A stretch of DNA of 64,000 bases from Klebsiella pneumoniae (lineage in GTDB: Bacteria; Pseudomonadota; Gammaproteobacteria; Pseudomonadales; UBA5518). The stretch lies in NCBI GenBank assembly GCA_945862145.1, contig CAMAXE010000022.1:1-64000 (forward strand), read 5' to 3'. The position numbers and the translations under genes were made by a program. The notes beneath the pieces were generated by a model that was not told the DNA's origin, did no database searches, and saw nothing but the letters and a program-made list of their open reading frames with translations. This document shows, in pieces, positions 1,243-11,193 of the stretch (position 1 is its first letter; every line of letters begins with the position of its first letter).

Positions 1243-1944
1243 ATGATCAAGCGCTTCACCTTCGTGCGCCGCGCCATGGGCATCACGCCGGATGGCTTCC
1301 ATGAGGCCTGGCGCAGTCGTCACGCCGATCTGCTCGGCTCGCACCCGGCGTTACGCGGGCAGCTCCTGCGCTGGGAATTGCTCCACCGCCTGGACGAGGA
1401 CTATGCGCGCAGCCGCGAGGCCACCGAGCTCGAGGGGCTGCAGTGGGATGCCGTCTCGGTGCAGGAGTTTCTGGATGAAGCAGCGCTGCATACCTTCGAC
1501 GCCGCGCTGCCAGCCGGCTGGGATGCAAGCCCGCTGGCGGAGTCACGCGCCAGCGTGATCACGGCCGCCCCCACGGTGATCGTGGAGCGCGCGGGCGGCA
1601 AGGCCGGCGCGGGACTCAGACTCACGGCCATCCTGCGCCACAATGCCGCACTCGAACTGCCCGTATTCCACGCACACTGGCGCGAGCACCACGGCGACCT
1701 GTATCGCAGCGTGCCCGCGCTGAACGAGCCCGTGTTTCACTACGACCAGAATCACGGCATCGACCTGCCGGGCGCGGAGTTCGACGGCGTGACGGAGCAG
1801 TGGTTCGCGTCACTCGCGGCGTGGATAGATTCGATCTGCGTGCCCGAGCAGAGCGGCCTGATCGACCCTGATGTGGCGTATTTCCTCGAACCCGCGAGCA
1901 TCTCCTACCTGCTGTCGGGGCAGCCAACGGTGCTGGTCGCTTAG
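1243..1944 (+). CDS. Tandem EthD-domain protein
   Basis: This 233-residue protein carries two EthD-like dimeric alpha/beta-barrel repeats. The first (about 1-110) holds the pattern F-H-E-A-W-x3-H (HEAWRSRH). The second (about 125-230) repeats it as FHAHWREHHGDLY. EthD proteins are small ferredoxin-like-fold proteins found beside P450s and ring-degrading enzymes; most have no defined reaction. The ATG at 1243 follows a CGGGA-type ribosome binding site. The stop is followed after 14 bp by the first REP-like palindrome. The duplicated architecture is visible in the sequence; a role in degradation is inference. Confidence 0.75.
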   Translation: MIKRFTFVRRAMGITPDGFHEAWRSRHADLLGSHPALRGQLLRWELLHRLDEDYARSREATELEGLQWDAVSVQEFLDEAALHTFDAALPAGWDASPLAESRASVITAAPTVIVERAGGKAGAGLRLTAILRHNAALELPVFHAHWREHHGDLYRSVPALNEPVFHYDQNHGIDLPGAEFDGVTEQWFASLAAWIDSICVPEQSGLIDPDVAYFLEPASISYLLSGQPTVLVA

Positions 1945-1958
1945 CGGGCTGGCCTACG

Positions 1959-1983
1959 GGTCGCGCGCATGGCGCGCTCCTAC
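1959..1983 (-). repeat. REP-like palindrome, copy 1
   Basis: Minus-strand copy of a GTAG-headed element with the imperfect palindrome GCGCGCCATGCGCGC. It sits 14 bp past the EthD stop codon. The head and hairpin resemble the REP elements that accompany RAYT transposases in pseudomonads. Confidence 0.75.
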
Positions 1984-1987
1984 GCCC

Positions 1988-2163
1988 GCACAGAAACCTG
2001 GTGCCGCGACGACATCCCCGAATGCAAGTAGGCGCGCCATGCGCGTGACCGAGGAATGAGCCTCGCGTGCTGGTTGCTTGGCGAGCACCCAGGTCACGCG
2101 CACAGAAGCGTGGTGCCGCGACGACGTCCCCGCATGCAAGTAGGAGCGCGCCATGCGCGCGAC
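1988..2163 (+). repeat. Imperfect direct repeat (period 112 bp) carrying REP copies 2 and 3
   Basis: Two related blocks of about 63 bp begin at 1988 and 2100. Both share GTGCCGCGACGAC followed by TCCCCG and ATGCAAGTAG, and each ends in a REP-like palindrome. A middle segment (about 2051-2099) is present only once. The arrangement suggests local duplication of a REP plus its flank. Confidence 0.65.
2028..2050 (+). repeat. REP-like palindrome, copy 2
   Basis: Plus-strand GTAGG head followed by GCGCGCCATGCGCGTG. It is two bases shorter than the other copies and has one mismatch in the right arm. It forms an inverted pair with copy 1, 44 bp away, as in a BIME. Confidence 0.7.
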
Positions 2164-2164
2164 C
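2140..2164 (+). repeat. REP-like palindrome, copy 3
   Basis: Full-length plus-strand copy: GTAGGAG, then the palindrome GCGCGCCATGCGCGC, then GACC. It ends about 40 bp before the 3' end of the RAYT gene. Confidence 0.75.
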
Positions 2165-2204
2165 CACCACCGCTGCGCACTGCACGCCAACATTCCGCCT
2201 CGCG

Positions 2205-2699
2205 TCAACACCGCCATCGCGACCACGCGAATTCGTATTCCTCCGGCCTCGCCACAAGTCCTGCTCGCATCGGGTTCGCGAGCAAGTACTCGACTACCGG
2301 TTCCAGAGATTCCTCACTGCGCAGGGCGTGATCGTGATAACCCGACGCCCACAGCGTCCCGCGACGCTGCAACACCGCGTTCACCCGCCGGGAAGAACCG
2401 GATTTGATGCGTGCGACAGCCACAGACAACGACTCGGGTGCCGAGAGCTCCATCAGCAGATGCACGTGGTCGGGCATGACCACCCAGGCGAGAAAGAGAT
2501 TGGCCCCGTCCAGAGTCCCGCCCCCGAGGGCTGCAGCCATGGTCGAGGCGGGCGCAGCGTCCCGGAAGACGGGACGTCGGTCTCGTGTACCAAATGTGAG
2601 GAAGTACACGTGGCCAGGCGCCGACACACGACCTCGACGAAGCGATGCGTGGCCCTTTCGGCGGGTTGGTGTGACAAGGGGTGATGTCGGGTTATTCAT
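2205..2699 (-). CDS. REP-associated tyrosine transposase (RAYT, Y1_Tnp family)
   Basis: This single-domain HUH transposase belongs to the IS200-like Y1 family. It has the N-terminal signature APGHVYFLTFGTRD, the metal-binding HUH motif PDHVHLL, and the C-terminal helix EYLLANPMRAGLV that carries the candidate catalytic tyrosine. I chose the ATG at 2699 (164 residues). A longer frame starts at 2798, but that start lies inside a REP palindrome and adds residues unlike the family. RAYTs nick and move REP/BIME elements instead of a transposon of their own. REP-like copies on both sides (1959-2164 and 2787-3060) fit that role. No terminal ends of an insertion sequence are visible. Confidence 0.85.
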   Translation of the reverse strand: MNNPTSPLVTPTRRKGHASLRRGRVSAPGHVYFLTFGTRDRRPVFRDAAPASTMAAALGGGTLDGANLFLAWVVMPDHVHLLMELSAPESLSVAVARIKSGSSRRVNAVLQRRGTLWASGYHDHALRSEESLEPVVEYLLANPMRAGLVARPEEYEFAWSRWRC

Positions 2700-2786
2700 G
2701 CGGGGGTCATCCTTGACCGGGAGGCTCAGGCTAGCAGCGACCTGCAGACCTGTGAAGTGGGTTTTTTGGTCGGGTGAGGGCACATC

Positions 2787-2811
2787 GATCGCGCGCATGG
2801 CGCGCTCCTAC
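2787..2811 (-). repeat. REP-like palindrome, copy 4
   Basis: Full-length minus-strand copy, reading GATCGCGCGCATGGCGCG and then CTCCTAC on the plus strand. It lies 88 bp upstream of the RAYT start, facing the plus-strand tandem array. Confidence 0.75.
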
Positions 2812-2840
2812 ATCCATGCAGAAAGGTGGCCGTGTTATCA

Positions 2841-3060
2841 GGGCGCGCCATGCGCGCGACCTCCAGCGGGACCGTGGTCCTGCTGCGCGCACGCCGCGAT
2901 GTACTCGTAGGAGCGCGCCATGCGCGCGATCTCCAGCGGAACCGTGGTCCTACTGCGCGCACGCCGTGACGTACACGTAGGGGCGCGCCATGCGCGCGAC
3001 CTCCAGCGGGACCGTGGTCCTGCTGCGCGCACGCCGTGACGTACACGTAGGAGCGCGCTA
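2841..3060 (+). repeat. 70-bp tandem array, about 3.1 copies, each with a REP-like palindrome
   Basis: Units begin at 2841, 2911 and 2981, with a partial fourth at 3051-3060 (GAGCGCGCTA). Each unit has the palindrome GCGCGCCATGCGCGC, a CTCCAGCGG block, ACCGTGGTCC, then CTGCGCGCACGCCG, and ends in a GTAG head that begins the next palindrome. REP heads lie at 2907, 2977 and 3047; the first copy's head is degenerate. Copies differ at only a few bases, which implies recent amplification. This accounts for most of the 405-bp gap between the RAYT and the acyl-CoA dehydrogenase. Confidence 0.85.
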
Positions 3061-3104
3061 TAAGGCCGGAGCGCTCCACGCGCGCACGCGCTAGCGGCAA
3101 GTGC

Positions 3105-4268
3105 TCAGAACGATCGCGGCAGCCCGAGGCCCTCGGCGATCTGGTTGCGGGCCATTTCGTTGCTGATCGGCCCGATCCGCAGCAGCCGCGAATCGCGCCA
3201 GTAGCGCTGCATATCGGTCTCGGCGGAGTAGCCCATGCCACCGAGTATCTGGATGCCCAGATCGGCCGCCTTGCCCACGTATTCGGAACAGAGCACCTTG
3301 GCCATGTTCGACTCCATGGCGCTCGGTTTTTCCGCCGCCTGCAAGAGCGCCGTGTGCAGCACCATGAGCTCGCCCTGCGCCTGCCACATCGCCATGTCGG
3401 CCACGTAGTGCTGCAATGCCTGGAACTCGCCGATCAGCCGCCCGAAGGCCTGACGCGTGCGCATATGTGCCAGCGCATCTTCCAGCACGCCATCGAGCAT
3501 GCCGAGGCAGGTGGCCGCATTCACCAGCCGCTCGTTGTTCAGCGGGCGCGTGGAGGGGCGCCAGCCCTGGCCTTCCTCGCCGAGCAGCAATTCATCGGGC
3601 ACGAAGACCTTGTCCAGATGCACCGAGCAGGAGGCGACGCAGCGCATCCCCAGCTTGGGCATCTCAGTGATGGTGATGCCCGCGCTGCGGCGAGGCACGA
3701 AGAAAATCGATATCCCGTCCGAGCGCTTCGCCACCTCGGTGCGCGTGCGCGCCATCAGGAACAGGTAATCGGCCACGTGCGCGCAAGTGCTCCAGATTTT
3801 TTCGCCGTCGATCACCCAGCCGCCGTCTACCTTGCGGGCGCGGGTGCGCATGCCGCCCAACAGATCGGTGCCGCCGCCAGGCTCGGTGAATGCCATCGCG
3901 GTGCGCAGCTTGCCCGCCGCGATCCGCGGCAGGAACTCGCGACGCTGCGCCTCGGAGCCGCAGTAGCTGATGGCCTTGCTGCCACTGAAGGACGTCACGC
4001 CCCACACCCAGCTCAGCCCCGCGGCGGTGCGTGCAAGCTCACGGGCGAAAAGCGCCTGCGTGACGATGCTGCCGCCCTGCCCGCCCAGTTCCTCCGGGAT
4101 GCCGATGCCGTGAGCACCGAAATCACACAGCCGCTGCCACAGGACCTCCGGGAACTCGTGTTCACGGCGCTCGAGTTCGCGGCACCAGTCTTTGGGCACC
4201 TCCGCCTCCACCCAGCGCCTGGCGGTGTCGCGGAATGCAAGGTCCTCGTCGCTCAGCAAGTCGTTCAT
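3105..4268 (-). CDS. Acyl-CoA dehydrogenase family protein
   Basis: A full-length 387-residue FAD flavoprotein expected to insert an alpha-beta double bond into an acyl-CoA in the cytoplasm. An N-terminal helical domain is followed by FTEPGGGTD (127-135) and GEKIWSTCA (155-163) in the middle beta domain. The C-terminal domain carries LGGMGYSAETD and RDSRLLRIG. Where short- and medium-chain enzymes have the catalytic glutamate (YEGT), this protein reads RIGPISNE, so that glutamate is absent; the base may come from another helix, as in isovaleryl- and long-chain enzymes. The ATG follows GGAG by 8 bp. No partner genes are adjacent and the substrate is unknown. Confidence 0.9.
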   Translation of the reverse strand: MNDLLSDEDLAFRDTARRWVEAEVPKDWCRELERREHEFPEVLWQRLCDFGAHGIGIPEELGGQGGSIVTQALFARELARTAAGLSWVWGVTSFSGSKAISYCGSEAQRREFLPRIAAGKLRTAMAFTEPGGGTDLLGGMRTRARKVDGGWVIDGEKIWSTCAHVADYLFLMARTRTEVAKRSDGISIFFVPRRSAGITITEMPKLGMRCVASCSVHLDKVFVPDELLLGEEGQGWRPSTRPLNNERLVNAATCLGMLDGVLEDALAHMRTRQAFGRLIGEFQALQHYVADMAMWQAQGELMVLHTALLQAAEKPSAMESNMAKVLCSEYVGKAADLGIQILGGMGYSAETDMQRYWRDSRLLRIGPISNEMARNQIAEGLGLPRSF

Positions 4269-4394
4269 GCGGGTGCTCCATCAGGACCAGAAGGCGGAGT
4301 ATCGGCCACCCGGTGTATCGGCGTCACTGCGAGGGACCGACCATTGCCTGGGAAGCGCGCGCGTTTTTGCGCGACAATAGCCCCGAGGATCCGG

Positions 4395-4625
4395 ATGTAC
4401 CCCTGCACCATGACCAACAATCCCGCGGATATCGGCGCAGTGCTGATGTTCGAGGCCTTGCAAACAACCGACGAGATACCCGTGGGCACCTGGTTCGAAT
4501 ACGTCGACCCGCGCAGCGGCAGTTCGCGGCGCTGCACGCTGTCGTCTCCCATCGAGGAGTCGCGCACGCTGGTGGATCGTACACTCGACACGATCGCCGA
4601 GACGCTTGGTCAAATCGCTACATGA
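4395..4625 (+). CDS. Small protein of unknown function, coupled to the permuted amine oxidase
   Basis: A 76-residue frame starts at ATG 4395, six bases after GAGG; an alternative ATG is at 4410. Its TGA overlaps the next ATG (ATGA at 4622-4625), the usual sign of translational coupling. The stretch VGTWFEYVDPRSGSSRRC followed by TLSSP is weakly like the C-terminal segment of DUF1631/PilZ-type proteins, where G-x-W-x-E-F and R-x-L-S occur. That resemblance is tentative. It has no signal peptide or membrane segment. It runs divergently from the acyl-CoA dehydrogenase, with a 126-bp gap between them. Confidence 0.5.
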   Translation: MYPCTMTNNPADIGAVLMFEALQTTDEIPVGTWFEYVDPRSGSSRRCTLSSPIEESRTLVDRTLDTIAETLGQIAT

Positions 4626-5923
4626 GAGCCTCGTACCAACCGCTCTCAGCGGCCGTATCACGCTGGAGCGATGATCCTTTCTCGCGTGGCGGTTGGAGCC
4701 TGCTACGGGTCGGGGGCACACCCGCCACCCGTGCCGCCCTGGGCCAACCCTTCGGGCGCGTGATTCTTGCTGGTGAGGCCACACATCCCGACCAGGCAGG
4801 CATGGTGCATGGGGCCTTCGAGGAGGGGCTGCGCGCGGCGCGCTGGTGCATCGGGCAAGAAGTGCGCTCGGTGATCGTGATCGGTGCGGGCGCGGCTGGC
4901 ATCGGTGCGGCACGCGCGCTGCAGGATGCCGGCATACACACAGTTCTTCTGGAGGCGCGGGACCGGATCGGCGGCCGGACATGGTCCGTGAACCTGACGC
5001 CAACAGACCACGCAGGCACCACGCCCTGCGTGCTGGAGCTGGGTGCCAACTGGCTGCAGCAAGGCGCGCGCAACACGCTGGCCCCGCTCGCGCAGGCCAT
5101 CGGCTGCCGGCTGGTCGACACCGACTTCCACGACCCCCTGCAGTTGGGCTCCGCGCCGGCCGGGCTGGACAGCGCGATCACCGAGGCGGTGATGGCGCGG
5201 CTCCGCGGGATGGCCGAGCGCGCTGCGTGCGCACGGGACCTGCCCCTTGCCGGCATCGTGGACGCCTTGCTCGCCTCACCCGCACCCTTCGACCGTGAGA
5301 CCGTGCAGTACGTGGTGGATGCGGAGGTTTTTCTGGATACCGGCGCACCGCTCGGCGAACTCTCAGCGCGCCTTGGCTTCGAGGCGGGTGTGGGCGCCGG
5401 CGATCGCTGGATCGTGGAGGGCTACGGCGCGGTGCTGCGTTCGCTGCTCGGGGACATTGATCTGCGACTGAATACCGCGGTGGCCGAGATCACATGGAGC
5501 GAGCAGGGCGCCAGCGTGCGGCACAACACCGGCACCCTGCAGGCCGATGCCGTGATCGTGACGGTGCCGGCGGCGGTGCTGCAGGACAACTCGCCACGTT
5601 TCGTGCCGGAGCTGCCTTCAGCGCAGCGCCAGGCACTCGAACTGATGACCGCGGGTCGCGTGGAAAAAGCGGCCATGGTCTTTGCGGAGCGCTGGTGGCC
5701 CGCCTCGCCAAACGGCTATATCCGCATCGCCGACGGACCCGGACGGATATCCGAGTGGCTGGACCTGAGCGATGCGCTCGGCGTTCCCGCGATAACGGCA
5801 ATATTCGTGGGTGCCTGGGCGGCGGAACTCTGGGACGGTCAGGGCGATGCCGAGGTGGCGGCTCGCGTTGCCGAAGTGCTCTGGGGCGCCAGCGGAGGCA
5901 TCGCCGGGGAAACGCCTTCCTGA
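4622..5923 (+). CDS. Circularly permuted flavin amine oxidase-like protein
   Basis: This 433-residue flavoprotein has the segments of the monoamine-oxidase/polyamine-oxidase family in rotated order. Residues 12-26 (VSRWSDDPFSRGGWS) and 46-73 (with LAGEATHP and GMVHGAFEEGLRAA) match what normally ends these enzymes, the FAD-contacting AGE-x-T and G-x-V-H-G-A motifs. Only then comes the usual N-terminus: VIVIGAGAAGIGAA (84-97), LLEARDRIGGRTW, and LELGANWLQQG. The substrate domain follows, with TVPAAVLQ. The chain stops at WGASGGIAGETPS, just where the missing C-terminal piece would continue. All elements are present, so a folded enzyme is plausible. The substrate is unknown; amine or porphyrinogen/carotenoid-type oxidation are the family options. 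Confidence 0.82.
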   Translation: MRASYQPLSAAVSRWSDDPFSRGGWSLLRVGGTPATRAALGQPFGRVILAGEATHPDQAGMVHGAFEEGLRAARWCIGQEVRSVIVIGAGAAGIGAARALQDAGIHTVLLEARDRIGGRTWSVNLTPTDHAGTTPCVLELGANWLQQGARNTLAPLAQAIGCRLVDTDFHDPLQLGSAPAGLDSAITEAVMARLRGMAERAACARDLPLAGIVDALLASPAPFDRETVQYVVDAEVFLDTGAPLGELSARLGFEAGVGAGDRWIVEGYGAVLRSLLGDIDLRLNTAVAEITWSEQGASVRHNTGTLQADAVIVTVPAAVLQDNSPRFVPELPSAQRQALELMTAGRVEKAAMVFAERWWPASPNGYIRIADGPGRISEWLDLSDALGVPAITAIFVGAWAAELWDGQGDAEVAARVAEVLWGASGGIAGETPS

Positions 5924-5927
5924 ACGG

Positions 5928-6590
5928 CTACACCACCCGCGCGCCCACGTAATCGTGCCGGCGCAGATCCAGTGGCGTCTCGAAGATCTCGAAAATCAGG
6001 TGCGTGCGCGCGGTGGCGCCATCGTTGCGGACCGCGTGCATCAGGTTGTTGTTCACCTCGAAGCCGCGCCCCGGCGGCACGTGACGCCAGTCGGGATCGA
6101 CATAGAACTCGACCGCCGGATTGGTAGCCAGCACCACGTGCACTTTCCGGCAGAAAGCGGGGAAGCGTCCGCCGTCGCGATGCGCCGTGATCTCGCCACC
6201 GGCGGGCAGGCGCGCCAGCATCACGCGCGGCACCTCAGCGGCCACAAGCTCGAGCCGCTCCACCACCGCATCCAGAACCGGCTGCACCAGCGGCTCCCAT
6301 TCGGACCAGGCAGGGAGCGTGTAGTACTCGGTGGGCATGGCCACCTTGTGCACGAATTTCATCACGATGTGCTGCGTGCCACCCAGAGAGTCGAAGCGGT
6401 TGGGCTTGGCCTCATCGTGACGCCGCCAGCAGTCTTCATCGAGCCCCGCAACGCGCTGCTGCAGCGCAGCCACGTCAAGGTCGCCCAAGTCGCGGAAGCC
6501 GGTGGTCTTGCCGTAGTGAACGTAGCCGCGCGTGTCGATGTGGGGATACTCCTGCGGCGCGCTGGCCGCCGTACTGGACTCAGGACACAT
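5928..6590 (-). CDS. Aspartyl/asparaginyl beta-hydroxylase-like Fe(II)/2-oxoglutarate oxygenase
   Basis: 220 residues from ATG 6590, which overlaps the end of the OpgC-like gene by 11 bp. The cupin core shows the iron site HRDGG (His137, Asp139) and a second histidine in NNNLMHAVRND (His185). The RTHLIFE arginine (195) is the likely 2-oxoglutarate contact. The Asp/Asn hydroxylase (Asp_Arg_Hydrox) family hydroxylates side chains of peptides, lipids or small molecules. A longer frame from 6647 exists, but its extra residues are Pro/Cys-rich and lie antisense-like inside the neighbour. The overlap with a membrane acyltransferase suggests a joint product, perhaps a modified lipid or glycan; this is inference. 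Confidence 0.82.
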   Translation of the reverse strand: MCPESSTAASAPQEYPHIDTRGYVHYGKTTGFRDLGDLDVAALQQRVAGLDEDCWRRHDEAKPNRFDSLGGTQHIVMKFVHKVAMPTEYYTLPAWSEWEPLVQPVLDAVVERLELVAAEVPRVMLARLPAGGEITAHRDGGRFPAFCRKVHVVLATNPAVEFYVDPDWRHVPPGRGFEVNNNLMHAVRNDGATARTHLIFEIFETPLDLRRHDYVGARVV

Positions 6591-7665
6591 GGGCCCGACG
6601 CACGGGGCCAGCGTGGGCCGCGGCGGGCACGGACGTGGCGCGGGCATGGACCCACGCCACCAGGAACAGCCAGCCGAGCATCAGCAATGGCACCAGCACC
6701 TGCGCCAACCACGGGTAAGGTTGGGGGCGGAAATGCCACACGTAGATCAGCGGCAAGTGCAAGCTGAACACCGCAAGCGAGTGCTGTCCGAGAAAACGCG
6801 CCGGCGCCCAGTCCAGTGCGCGCGGCCAGCGCCGGATGATCTCGACGACCACGACCGCCGCGGCCCCGAAGGACATCACGCGCAGCGGACCGAGCCGGGC
6901 GCGGGAGATCCAGACAGATTCATCCGCCAAGGGCTCGAGGCCGAAAACACCGTTGCGCCAGCAGAAAAACGCTACCGCCAGCAACAAAGCAAGCTGCACA
7001 GTGGCGCGCCATATCGCGCCACCGATCACCTCGCCCTGCCGGCGTAGCAGCGCAAGGCTGACGCCGACGAAAAACAGCAGCTGCCAGCCCAGCGGATCGA
7101 ACAAACCCATCCGCATCCAAGCGGGCAAGAGCAGTGCGCGTATCGATCCTGTTGCGCCGAATTGTCCGGCTAGCCAGAGCAGCAATGACACGGCAAACAC
7201 GCAGGCGGGGGCGCGACGGGGCCAGCGCAGGGCCAGACCCGGCACCAGCAACCCGGTGCCAAGCAGCAACACAACGTAGAGCGGCAACACGTCGAGGTAG
7301 TCTGGCTGGTGCACCAGCGCGGCCGCACCCGCCAATTCACGCAACCACTGTGCGGCTTCGAGCCCAGGCAGTGGCCGCCAGCCAAACGCGGGCAGCGCCA
7401 ATGCCAACACGGCCATCGGGGCGAGGGCTAGCAGATGCCACTTCCACACCACGCGGCTGCGTTGCAGAAACCATGCGCGGGGATCGGGCTTTTCCAACGC
7501 CACCTGGGTGGCCACATAACCCGAGATCAGAAAAAACCCCTCGGCCGCCGTCCAGAATCCGAGGCGCTCGTAGAAATGGGCCGATATCGGCCCGCCCCAG
7601 TGGTCGATGGCCATCCACGCGAGCAGGATCCCCCTGATCGAGTCGATCGCCGTGACGCGTTTCAT
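6580..7665 (-). CDS. OpgC-like membrane acyltransferase
   Basis: 361 residues, starting at MKRVTAIDSIRG after an AGGA site. About ten hydrophobic helices fill the protein. The N-terminal signature R-x5-D-x-x-R-G (TAIDSIRGILL), the early DHWGGP and FFLISGYVA are typical of OpgC-type and acyltransferase-3-like proteins. OpgC succinylates periplasmic glucans; here the acceptor is not evident and no opgG/opgH is nearby. A conserved-looking late segment reads FLGQHSLAVFSLHLPLIY. It is the first gene of a two-gene overlapping unit with the downstream hydroxylase-like gene. Confidence 0.8.
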   Translation of the reverse strand: MKRVTAIDSIRGILLAWMAIDHWGGPISAHFYERLGFWTAAEGFFLISGYVATQVALEKPDPRAWFLQRSRVVWKWHLLALAPMAVLALALPAFGWRPLPGLEAAQWLRELAGAAALVHQPDYLDVLPLYVVLLLGTGLLVPGLALRWPRRAPACVFAVSLLLWLAGQFGATGSIRALLLPAWMRMGLFDPLGWQLLFFVGVSLALLRRQGEVIGGAIWRATVQLALLLAVAFFCWRNGVFGLEPLADESVWISRARLGPLRVMSFGAAAVVVVEIIRRWPRALDWAPARFLGQHSLAVFSLHLPLIYVWHFRPQPYPWLAQVLVPLLMLGWLFLVAWVHARATSVPAAAHAGPVRRAHVS

Positions 7666-7931
7666 GGCGTGTATTCCTGCCACGGACTGGAATAGCCCAT
7701 GCATGATGAACGCTGCACCGTGGCCGGGCTGCGGCGACTCTCAGCGGCGGCCGGGACTGGCATCTCAAGCTCTCGGCGCGTTGAAGGATTGCTGCACCCG
7801 CACGATACCCGTCACTGCGCCCGGGCTGCAACGCGGAAATCCACACCGCAGCACCGCGTGTTCGAGGGGGATTGAAGACCAGCCGGTACCACGGTCTAAA
7901 ATGCACGCGCCAATCACCGGGAGCCACCACC

Positions 7932-8954
7932 ATGCGATTCACGCGAACCCTTCTCGCCACCCTGCTATGCCTCGGCGGCAGCCAGATCGCACGGGCCGAC
8001 ACCCTTGTCATGAAGAGCGGCGACCGCCTGAGCGGCACGGTCATCAGCTTGCAGGACGACTTACTCACGCTGGAAACCAGCTACGCCGGCAAGATACCGA
8101 TCAAGTGGACCGAAGTGGCTTCGCTGGAAACCACCGGCAATGCCCGCTTCAAATTGCGCGACGGCACCATGATGCAGGCGCAGGCCAAGGCCGCCGCCGC
8201 GTCCACCGTGGTGCTGCGCTCCGGGGAGATCATCACGACCGCGCCAATCGCACTCGCCGACGTCGCCTACATCAACCCGCCGCCCGAGGTGACGGGCGAG
8301 GGGCTCAGCATGAGCGGCCGTGCCAACCTTGGTTTCTCGGCCAACCGTGGCAACACCGACAACAGCCAGCTGATGTACGACGTCGAAGCTGTCGCGCGCG
8401 GCATCGACAACCGCTTCACGGTCGGGGCGACGGGCGAACAGAAAGACGAGAACGGCGAAGAAACAGCCCGCAACAACGGGGCCTATCTCAAGTATGACCG
8501 CTTTTTCTCGAAGCGCTGGTACGGCTATGCGAACACCAGCTTCGAGGAAGACCGCTTCAAGGATCTCAACCTGCGAGCCACGCTCGGCGTGGGATCGGGC
8601 TACCAGTTCTTCGAGTCGGAACTGCAGAACCTCGCTCTGGAAGGCGGTCTCACCTATGTGAACGAGGACTTCGACGAGGGCGAGGACGAGGGCTACGCGG
8701 CCGGCCGCTGGGCGCTGCGCTACGACCGCTTCCTGTTCGGCACCACCACCCAGTTCTTCCACGCGCACGAGGGGCTGGTGAGCGTGGAAGACGCCAAGGA
8801 TTTCCTCTGGCAGTCACAGACGGGCCTGCGCTTCCCCTTGATCAAAGACCTGAACGCCACGGTCCAGTACAACATCGACTACGACAACAAGCCCTCGGAC
8901 GAGGCGAAGAAAACCGATAGCGCCTACATCATGAGCGTGGGCTACGCGTGGTGA
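7932..8954 (+). CDS. DUF481 outer-membrane beta-barrel protein
   Basis: 340 residues. The ATG at 7932 follows CGGGAG, and residues 1-22 form a signal peptide ending ARA-DT. A small N-terminal domain (about 24-110) contains SGDRLSGTVISL, an SH3-like or Hfq-like periplasmic motif often found before DUF481. From about 125 the sequence alternates in beta strands: GFSANRGNTDNS, then many aromatic-ended strands. It terminates in tryptophan, as expected for BAM-dependent outer-membrane barrels. The YdiY-like family has no settled function. Its stop abuts the stop of the convergent small membrane protein with no spacer. Confidence 0.88.
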   Translation: MRFTRTLLATLLCLGGSQIARADTLVMKSGDRLSGTVISLQDDLLTLETSYAGKIPIKWTEVASLETTGNARFKLRDGTMMQAQAKAAAASTVVLRSGEIITTAPIALADVAYINPPPEVTGEGLSMSGRANLGFSANRGNTDNSQLMYDVEAVARGIDNRFTVGATGEQKDENGEETARNNGAYLKYDRFFSKRWYGYANTSFEEDRFKDLNLRATLGVGSGYQFFESELQNLALEGGLTYVNEDFDEGEDEGYAAGRWALRYDRFLFGTTTQFFHAHEGLVSVEDAKDFLWQSQTGLRFPLIKDLNATVQYNIDYDNKPSDEAKKTDSAYIMSVGYAW

Positions 8955-9194
8955 TCAGCCACGGCGCGAGGGCCAGAACCACGCGCCGAGTGCAATCGGG
9001 ATGAGCGGCCAGAAGGGCACGCTGGTGGCGAACTGCGGCAGGATGCCCGAACCGTCGAACAGGGCCACAGCGGGCGGGCCCCACTGCCGGGCCGTCGCGA
9101 TCATCAGTACCCCAGCGGCCGCCAGAGAGGTGCTGATCACCCGGAGCAGCCAGCGTGGCGCTGCGGTGCGCGCAGTGGCATCGACGCGTACCAT
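8955..9194 (-). CDS. Small two-helix membrane protein, unknown function
   Basis: 79 residues from ATG 9194, seven bases after a strong GGAGGG site, which favours this start over one 54 bp upstream. Two hydrophobic spans are visible (around SLAAAGVLMIATA and FWPLIPIALGAWFW), separated by a short loop with GPPAVALFDGSG. I recognise no family. It is divergent from the haem-type membrane gene, with only 60 bp between their start codons, so the two may share a control region. Confidence 0.55.
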   Translation of the reverse strand: MVRVDATARTAAPRWLLRVISTSLAAAGVLMIATARQWGPPAVALFDGSGILPQFATSVPFWPLIPIALGAWFWPSRRG

Positions 9195-9254
9195 GTGCAA
9201 CCCTCCGATGTCGCCCGAAGGGGCGGGAAGCAGCGAATCAGGAGGCATCTTCCG

Positions 9255-9929
9255 ATGAAAACATGGATGACGTCATCCCTTGGCCGCGCCGCCACCGGCC
9301 AATGGAGTTTCTTCGCGCTGGTGAGTGCGCTCACGGCAGCGGCGATGCTCATATCGATGCGCGAGTCCGATCTTTCATCCGCGGCTGCCATCTCGCACCT
9401 GATTGCCGTTTCGGTGCGTTTCTCGGTGCCGTGGCTCTATCTCGCTTTCAGCGCCTCCGCGATTGCCGTGCTGTGGCCGGGCCCGGCGAGCCGCTGGCTG
9501 CTGCAACGCCGGCGGATCATCGGGCTGTGCTATGCCGCAGGCATGGCCTGGCAACTGCTTTTCATCCTGTGGCTGGTACTGGCTCATCGCGAGTGGTACC
9601 TCGAGATGCAGTACAGCCCCTATGCCCTCGCCGAGGAAATACCGGGCTATCTCCTGCTGGTCACGATGGCCGCCACATCCTTCCGCGCGGGCCGCAGGCG
9701 ACTTTCCCCTGCGCAATGGCGGACACTGCACACCGTGGGGATCTATTTCCTCTGGGGCGAGACATGGAGCACCTATTGGTTCGAGATCTACGATCTGAAC
9801 GACGTGCAATGGACCGACACGGTGTATTACTGGCTCGGTATGCTGGCATGGCTGTTGCGGCTGGCAGCCTGGTCCCGGCAACGTGAGCGCAAACAACCGT
9901 ATGGCATCACGATCACGACGCCCGCCTGA
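9255..9929 (+). CDS. Ferric reductase-like / cytochrome-b-type membrane protein
   Basis: 224 residues from ATG 9255, preceded by a perfect AGGAGG nine bases upstream. Around six transmembrane helices are visible. Histidines placed in or near helices (SHLIAVSVRF, LAHREWY, LHTVGIYFLW) and RRRLSPAQWRTLHTVGIY resemble the MsrQ/ferric-reductase-like haem-binding domain. Haem binding is inferred from pattern only. No MsrP-like molybdoprotein or flavodoxin domain is adjacent. Confidence 0.6.
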   Translation: MKTWMTSSLGRAATGQWSFFALVSALTAAAMLISMRESDLSSAAAISHLIAVSVRFSVPWLYLAFSASAIAVLWPGPASRWLLQRRRIIGLCYAAGMAWQLLFILWLVLAHREWYLEMQYSPYALAEEIPGYLLLVTMAATSFRAGRRRLSPAQWRTLHTVGIYFLWGETWSTYWFEIYDLNDVQWTDTVYYWLGMLAWLLRLAAWSRQRERKQPYGITITTPA

Positions 9930-9990
9930 ACCCCCGGACACAACGGCGTTACCTTCCCCCCCTGACATGCCTCCAAGCAACCCCCACGCA

Positions 9991-11193
9991 ATGAACACTC
10001 TGCGCAATGCCGTTCTGCTGCTGACCAGCATCCTGCTGGCCGCACCCGTCATGGCCGCCGACCTGCATGAGCAGGCCACCGCCATCGCCAAGCGTTACCC
10101 ACTGGTCGACGGGCATGTCGACCTGCCCACCCGGCTGCACAAGCAATGGGCGGACGTAGGCGCTGCAGCACCGGGAGGCGATTTCGATTACCCGCGGGCG
10201 GTGGCGGGCGGGCTCTCGGCGCCGTTCATGTCGATCTACATTCCTTCGGATCTCGAAGGCGCCGGCGCACGGGCGCTTGCCGATACCCTGATCGACCAGG
10301 TGGAGGCGATGGTGCAGCGCGCGCCAGAACATTTTGCCCTTGCACGCAGCGCGGCCGAGATCCGTGCCAACCACGCTGCGGGGCGCATCTCGCTGCCGCT
10401 CGGCATGGAGAACGGCGCCCCGATCGAGGGCGATCTCGCGAGCCTCGTCCATTTCCGTGATCGCGGCATCCGCTACATCACACTCGCGCACGCCAAGTCA
10501 AACCACATCGCCGACTCTTCCTACGACGAGGTGAAAATCTGGCAGGGCTTGAGCGCCTTCGGCGAGCAGGTGGTGCACGAGATGAACCGACTCGGAATCA
10601 TGGTCGACATCTCGCACGTATCGGACGCGGCCTTCTACCGCGTGCTCGAGATATCAGCAGTACCCGTTATCGCCTCGCATTCCTCGCTGCGGCACTTCAC
10701 GCCCGGACTCGAGCGCAATGTCGATGACAAGATGCTGCGCGCGCTCGCCGACAAGGGCGGCGTGATCATGATCAGTTTCGGAAGTTTCTTTCTCACCGCC
10801 GAGGCGGGCGCCTGGAGCAAGCGGGAGGACGCGGCTCTTGAGGCCTTCACGGCACTCCAGGACAAGAATTTCACCGAGGAAAAAGGCAAGGCCTTCGAGG
10901 CGCTCTACCGCGCTCGCTTCCCCTACCCGTATGCGCACGTCAGCGATGTGGCGGACCACGTGCAGCGCGCCGTGAAGATAGCGGGCATCGATCACGTGGG
11001 TTTCGGCTCGGATTTCGACGGTGTGGGCGATTCATTGCCCGAGGGGCTGAAAGACGTCTCGGGCTTCCCCAACCTGATCGAGGAACTGCTGCGCCGCGGC
11101 ATGCCCGAGGCCGACATCGCCAAGATCATGGGCGGCAATGTGCTGCGGGTGATGGAACAAACAGAGGCCTATGCAGCGAAAGCGGCCCTGTAA
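9991..11193 (+). CDS. Membrane dipeptidase, peptidase family M19
   Basis: A 400-residue secreted zinc dipeptidase. From ATG 9991 there is a clear signal peptide (NAVLLLTSILLAAPVMA). The two-metal site is complete: His42 and Asp44 (DGHVDLP), bridging Glu140 (GMENG), His209 (DISHVSD), His230 (IASHSS) and Asp341 (GFGSDFDG). Renal-dipeptidase-type enzymes cleave dipeptides, including D-residue peptides and some beta-lactams. An in-frame ATG at 9967 would lengthen the N-terminus by eight residues and spoil the signal peptide. It may act in periplasmic peptide scavenging. Confidence 0.93.
   Translation: MNTLRNAVLLLTSILLAAPVMAADLHEQATAIAKRYPLVDGHVDLPTRLHKQWADVGAAAPGGDFDYPRAVAGGLSAPFMSIYIPSDLEGAGARALADTLIDQVEAMVQRAPEHFALARSAAEIRANHAAGRISLPLGMENGAPIEGDLASLVHFRDRGIRYITLAHAKSNHIADSSYDEVKIWQGLSAFGEQVVHEMNRLGIMVDISHVSDAAFYRVLEISAVPVIASHSSLRHFTPGLERNVDDKMLRALADKGGVIMISFGSFFLTAEAGAWSKREDAALEAFTALQDKNFTEEKGKAFEALYRARFPYPYAHVSDVADHVQRAVKIAGIDHVGFGSDFDGVGDSLPEGLKDVSGFPNLIEELLRRGMPEADIAKIMGGNVLRVMEQTEAYAAKAAL

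Follow-up and report, generated by a model that had tools for sequence, protein, structure and literature searches.

The window analysed here, a stretch of 64,000 nucleotides, carries on its forward strand at 4622-5923 a complete gene for a protein of 433 residues plus stop which, by its translation and by comparison with its rotated relatives, belongs to the flavin amine oxidases in a circularly permuted order. Residues 6-74 (4637-4843), which hold the W-x2-DPF, AGE and HGA motifs and are C-terminal in canonical enzymes, are N-terminal here, and residues 83-433 (4868-5920), comprising the FAD-binding Rossmann part and the substrate part that open the canonical chain, follow them, as placed by profile matches and a structural model. 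In the translation, RWSDDPFSRGGWS occupies residues 14-26, LAGEATHP residues 49-56 and GMVHGAFEEG residues 60-69, and VIVIGAGAAGIG begins at residue 84. The gene start at 4622 matches that of a 93% identical relative in L006, and in both contigs it overlaps the stop of the frame upstream (4625 in the window, 4004 in L006). In the window this upstream frame (4410-4625, forward strand) is the remnant of a DUF1631 gene, in which the opening codons run straight into the final part; its last four bases also belong to the permuted gene. Aligned with its intact counterpart in L006 (783-4004; PF07793, E = 6.7e-135), the remnant lacks about 1.84 kb (L006 1861-3704) and a further 84 bp or so (L006 3846-3929), deletions that leave the permuted gene untouched. 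At about 1950-3240 the window also contains short repeated stretches, whose translations RSAPCARP and ARMARSY recur in several frames, surrounding an open reading frame of 197 residues (2205-2798, reverse strand) that contains MPDHVHLLMEL and resembles a REP-associated transposase.

Against PF01593 the whole protein scores 164.9 bits, where the curated cut-off is 19.8, and does so in two stretches, the main one placing residues 92-419 on profile positions 2-360. Taken separately, residues 1-80 align to positions 371-440 of 443 (52.8 bits, E = 5.2e-14) and residues 81-433 to positions 2-360 (122.5 bits), each above the cut-off, and rotation in silico turns the two stretches into one that runs from position 2 to 440 of 443 at 174.2 bits. 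A local model was built from 17 canonical proteins and used to scan rotations at five-residue steps; unrotated, the window protein matches it with 207.6 bits (model 22-362 at residues 78-420) and 65.9 bits (model 372-441 at residues 6-74), and cut at residue 75 and rotated it matches in a single stretch of 277.3 bits. A phmmer comparison with LSD2 likewise returns the segments in scrambled order, query residues 82-122, 258-365 and 7-73 falling on chain positions 337-377, 522-631 and 703-770. The sequence-only reading had noticed the C-terminal motifs of the amine oxidases directly before the N-terminal part, and was right in every detail checked against the translation and PF01593; its expectation that residues 1-80 align to the canonical C-terminal end and 81-433 to the rest was borne out by phmmer, the local model and PF01593 alike. 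As a control on the rotation scan, 12 canonical proteins were drawn on, of which two longer than 520 residues were skipped, and in the 10 proteins scored, all from outside the model, the native order lies within 1 bit of the best rotation. Among individual PDB chains, rotation raises the score of the window protein against LSD1 (91.3 to 97.4 bits) and polyamine oxidase (79.0 to 82.1 bits) and lowers it against LSD2 (95.8 to 95.0 bits) and 8p84 (69.6 to 67.7 bits), and against LSD1 one stretch of the rotated chain crosses the junction (184-426 to 399-654). Since the canonical linear order, with the Rossmann strand first and the AGE/HGA segment last, is absent from the window protein, we class it as a permuted variant of PF01593, apart from the canonical members. 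In NCBIfam no equivalog scores above its cut-off for the window protein; the best match, the hydroxysqualene dehydroxylase HpnE (TIGR03467), was rejected at 46.6 bits against a curated cut-off of 283.05.

A further 29 genomes carry homologues in this rotated order. The 30 distinct genomes comprise 22 from the class of the window, its own included, and eight from a second class of the same phylum, referred to below by the working labels gamma and alpha, of which we infer the latter. Twenty-six of the rotated proteins are known in full, and the other four (G1236, G1238, G1239 and G1240) by an unbroken junction match alone. Within the genus of the window the rotated gene occurs in three of six genomes (L006 and G005 being the same contig), and the congener proteins, 93 and 69-70% identical to the window protein, keep the rotated order; that this order is common to congeners and to the other rotated proteins is far more than chance would give. 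The genome draws overlap one another, and because 4 to 150 candidates were scored per genome, genomes counted without the gene may still carry one. A draw of 390 genomes from the order gave eight with a match, six of them rotated and two (L011 and L013) canonical; among 148 genomes of family f20, 19 matched and 13 were rotated. Genus g70 has the rotated gene in 15 of 25 genomes and family f6 in one of 22. The draw from the phylum gave five matching genomes among 398, all five rotated, and that from the window's class five among 369, the window's own being the only rotated one. Within the other class, six of 149 genomes of family f262 carry the rotated gene, and a draw of 270 genomes from the class of f262 gave three matches, two of them rotated. 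Six of the genomes that carry it are single contigs (G124, G776, G811, G837, G851 and G010). In a plasmid collection, the window protein has 18 matching records, none of which exceeds 80%, and 87 matched the alpha protein L062, 10 of them over 80% with pieces joined whatever their order; among the five plasmid records examined (L078-L082) a rotated copy was not confirmed, four being canonical and L082 aligning in the main part alone.

The position at which the chain is opened is the same throughout. In 25 of 25 rotated proteins analysed, the chain starts at model position 369-375 and ends at 361-368, with at most about 10 model positions unaligned between the new ends and with no overlap or doubling, such that the two parts are homologous to opposite ends of one relative, complete and without duplication. 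By the secondary structure of the model, the junction (4805-4867) runs from helix 62-78, the last helix of the canonical chain, through a four-residue linker (79-82) to strand 83-87, the canonical first strand, and the chain finishes with the helix after which, in canonical order, the moved segment would follow. A short linker would thereby join the canonical N- and C-termini, both in the FAD domain, and the new opening would fall in the stretch that connects the final helix of the substrate part to the W-x2-DP segment. All 17 gamma proteins match the local model in two stretches with the moved segment first, and in a single stretch only once rotated, the best cut falling at residues 75-90. 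In all eight alpha proteins the rotation scan leaves the stretches unjoined, and it is the stretch order alone that is rotated (model positions about 369-446, then 21-130, then 172-368); the stretches stay split because of a gap of some 50 model positions in the substrate part. These positions, absent from all of the alpha permutants (L074, L062, L072, L073, L075, L063, L071 and L076), are retained in gamma. The alpha proteins (8/8) also bear a twin-arginine-like leader, with R8 and R9 invariant, directly before the moved segment, and are probably exported; the gamma chains open directly with the moved segment, and hence are probably cytoplasmic.

Conservation was assessed over 55 rows (17 gamma, eight alpha and 30 canonical). 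Identical in all 55 are the dinucleotide-binding glycines G88-x-G90-x2-G93 (4883-4900), K349 (5666-5668), which by alignment is the active-site lysine of the family and stands opposite that of LSD1, and E111 and R119 in the E-A-R/GGR region after the glycine motif. E52 of the AGE motif (4775-4777) is glutamate in 17/17 gamma, 8/8 alpha and 25/30 canonical rows. Opposite the tyrosine of the canonical G-x-Y-S stands W25 (4694-4696), a tryptophan in three of the 17 gamma rows, which are the three proteins of the window's genus, and a tyrosine in the other 14, in every alpha row and in 27 of the 30 canonical rows. Position 61 is threonine in 3/17 gamma, 8/8 alpha and 24/30 canonical rows and methionine in 14/17 gamma rows, from which it appears that details of the active site differ there. 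We take K349, position 25 and position 61 to be the counterparts of K661, Y761 and T810 of LSD1, the flavin-side lysine and the cage positions. In five pairs of rotated genes, dN/dS by a Nei-Gojobori script was 0.236 between the window and its nearest relative (moved segment alone 0.155, remainder 0.274), 0.256 between the window and L053, and 0.129, 0.182 and 0.182 in three further pairs, and such low values in both segments indicate that both parts are under purifying selection within one protein.

It is thus very probable that the gene product is a natural circular permutant within the superfamily of LSD1, polyamine oxidase and monoamine oxidase, and that it is functional. Once folded, the permutant would resemble and work like the canonical enzyme. 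By analogy with the family, FAD would be held by the Rossmann part and the moved AGE segment together, the amine would be oxidised at the flavin beside K349, and the reduced flavin would be reoxidised by O2 with formation of H2O2. The gene could instead be a decaying or non-catalytic remnant, a rotated relic retained for a different task, for example as a sensor of FAD or amines. Its patchy distribution, with 15 of 25 genomes in g70 and half of those in the window's genus, would fit such a relic, as would the methionine that replaces threonine at position 61 in most gamma rows. However, dN/dS stays at 0.13-0.26 in all five pairs, K349 and the glycine motif persist in every row, and the AGE glutamate persists in 25 of 25 rotated rows, so that a remnant is improbable, if the least improbable of the alternatives weighed here.

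A chimera, that is, a gene fusion of two parents in which the leading segment came from another amine oxidase, is slightly more doubtful still. The moved segment spans only some 70 columns, which leaves its parentage poorly resolved, and the closest canonical row often differs between the two parts. However, the identities of the two parts to the 30 canonical rows correlate in each of the 25 rotated rows (Spearman 0.42-0.84). In the alpha group the moved segment and the rest also lead to one shared set of canonical enzymes, and the hinge lacks any doubling. The correlated ranking of canonical relatives argues for one parent and against a chimera, weakly, the moved segment being short.

The proposed permutant is also consistent with the predicted structure. 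AlphaFold2, run on the 17-row alignment A3, gives one compact fold with a mean pLDDT of 87.6 and a pTM of 0.90; a prediction from the window protein and one relative reaches a pLDDT of 38.7 and a pTM of 0.26, so that the fold rests on the 17-row alignment. Foldseek ranks LSD2, polyamine oxidase and LSD1 at the top (best E = 5.4e-21, TM 0.67 by query length). VIA-align superposes model residues 77-429 on LSD2 (4fwe; Z 24.1, 2.9 Å over 341 residues), 80-429 on chain residues 277-740 of LSD1 (2z5u; Z 23.8) and 82-429 on chain residues 5-382 of the 459 of polyamine oxidase (1b37_A; Z 22.1), and the superposition stops where the last segment of these three enzymes begins. As a sequential aligner cannot place residues 1-76, the superposition covers residues 77-429; the confidence of the model as a single domain, together with the sequence, suggests that residues 1-76 lie at the place of the canonical C-terminal segment. 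It might be argued that the segment at the front belongs, in a domain-swapped dimer, to the fold of the neighbouring chain and not to that of its own. The link from the moved helix to the first strand is no more than about four residues long, and the prediction covered the monomer only, but confidence in that monomer model is high overall (pTM 0.90), and this arrangement is given a smaller chance again than a chimera.

The gene neighbourhoods of the permuted oxidase differ between the two groups, and no neighbour gene is common to both among the 17 gamma and seven of the eight alpha loci. A LysR-type regulator cluster is present around 12 of the 17 gamma loci (Pfam-checked on two), an AbrB-type membrane protein lies just upstream at eight of the 17 (Pfam-checked on one), and the neighbours at the seven alpha loci include a DEAD helicase, an AMP-binding enzyme and a DXP synthase, with no common theme. 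The neighbourhood was in general dropped as a guide to the substrate, there being no shared theme, and L110 alone is suggestive. There, at 2789-11042 on the reverse strand, the permuted oxidase is flanked on one side by an ABC transporter resembling the lysine/arginine/ornithine/histidine systems and on the other by two glutamine-synthetase-like proteins with a class-I amidotransferase. Nearly all NCBIfam scores at the locus lie below the curated cut-offs, and both glutamine-synthetase-like proteins score higher as GlnA than as gamma-glutamylputrescine synthetase. The arrangement recalls gamma-glutamylation routes of amine breakdown, and may be a possible lead to the substrate. An assembly or annotation artefact, whether a misjoined contig or the end of one gene fused to the start of another, is next to inconceivable: the genome of the window is a draft of 51 contigs and head-to-tail canonical pairs that a misassembly might collapse do exist (L077), but the layout is the same in independent assemblies at 93, 70, about 42 and about 30% identity, the six single-contig genomes refute misassembly, the rotated genes are under purifying selection, no close relative in canonical order was found in the window's genus among the 4 to 150 candidates scored per genome, and the differing neighbourhoods speak against one misassembled region. 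The circular permutation proposed in the sequence-only reading is supported, the predicted fold being single and homologues in the same order having been found, with the addition that the layout is common to a whole protein group in two classes and may have arisen twice.

The data bear on whether this permutation occurred once or twice. For the tree, the rotated rows were returned to canonical order and aligned to the 30 canonical rows. Among the rotated rows, those of gamma fall into a single group (support 92/93, not starred) and those of alpha into a separate one (100/99); the alpha group and 11 canonical rows, of which 10 bear an RR leader, together make up a starred clade (95/94). A tree constrained to unite every rotated row is worse by 12.4 log-likelihood units (AU p = 0.054). 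In a trimmed set, from which seven distant canonical and seven near-duplicate rotated rows, picked after the first tree had been seen, were dropped, the same constraint costs 20.8 units (p = 0.027), and support for the alpha-canonical clade is 88/95. In the main part the mean identity of the alpha proteins is 0.38 to the 10 canonical RR rows and 0.31 to the gamma proteins; in the moved segment the values are 0.46 and 0.39. These canonical twin-arginine amine oxidases (L011, L013, L015, L016, L037, L080, L094-L096 and L099), from Proteobacteria-type genomes and the Synechocystis plasmid pSYSM, have the N-terminal RR motif in common with the alpha permutants; however, they keep the usual order, with the leader before the Rossmann strand, whereas in the alpha permutants it precedes the moved segment. 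With the AU test borderline, the tree suggests that two origins are somewhat likelier than one. A history in which the permutation arose at the same hinge at least twice, in the leaderless gamma lineage and, in alpha, from a canonical twin-arginine enzyme whose leader was kept in front, is accordingly favoured by a little, and no more. An origin by duplication and partial loss of an ancestral gene is inferred for the permuted layout. In L077, two canonical amine oxidases that are 59% identical (475-1725 and 1762-3009, forward strand) follow one another head to tail in a common frame, with about 45 bases between them by ATG. The pair belongs to another branch of the family in the tree; its layout is the arrangement from which shifts of start and stop would give a permutant. 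If the permutation did arise twice in this manner, the fold would have one privileged opening point, reached by in-place duplication as in the L077 pair.

The permutant shares with the PF01593 family (LSD1/KDM1A, LSD2/KDM1B, plant polyamine oxidase and monoamine oxidase) all segments, the glycine motif, the lysine and, over residues 77-429, the predicted fold, and differs from it in order, the last 70-75 canonical residues standing first. A permutation has reportedly been described in another flavin-binding fold, the FMN/flavin-reductase type barrel, which is not the amine oxidase fold. In searches of the open full-text literature, no permuted amine oxidase appeared among the matches listed. 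Natural circular permutants include saposin and swaposin, DNA methyltransferases and transhydrogenases, in which homologous segments are rotated and the fold is kept, the textbook route being in-place duplication followed by a new start and stop (PMC3320104). The word "oxidase" does not occur in that paper, and it names no amine oxidase among the permutants (PMC3320104). Circular permutation is a known kind of change, to which, as to the flavin amine oxidase family, the rotated enzyme would add a variant.

For annotation, it follows that a linear profile returns two partial matches for such proteins, and permutants may be mistaken for truncated or misassembled genes. The fold of LSD1, monoamine oxidase and polyamine oxidase is, to our knowledge, among the best studied in flavoenzymes, and depictions of it always put the Rossmann strand first. 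A natural and conserved version in rotated order would mean that the topology of this fold is not fixed by folding or by cofactor loading, and the hinge would offer protein engineering a tolerated opening point together with a workable linker. If the permutation has arisen twice, the two lineages may be regarded as a replicated natural experiment on the reasons for which a fold opens at a given point.
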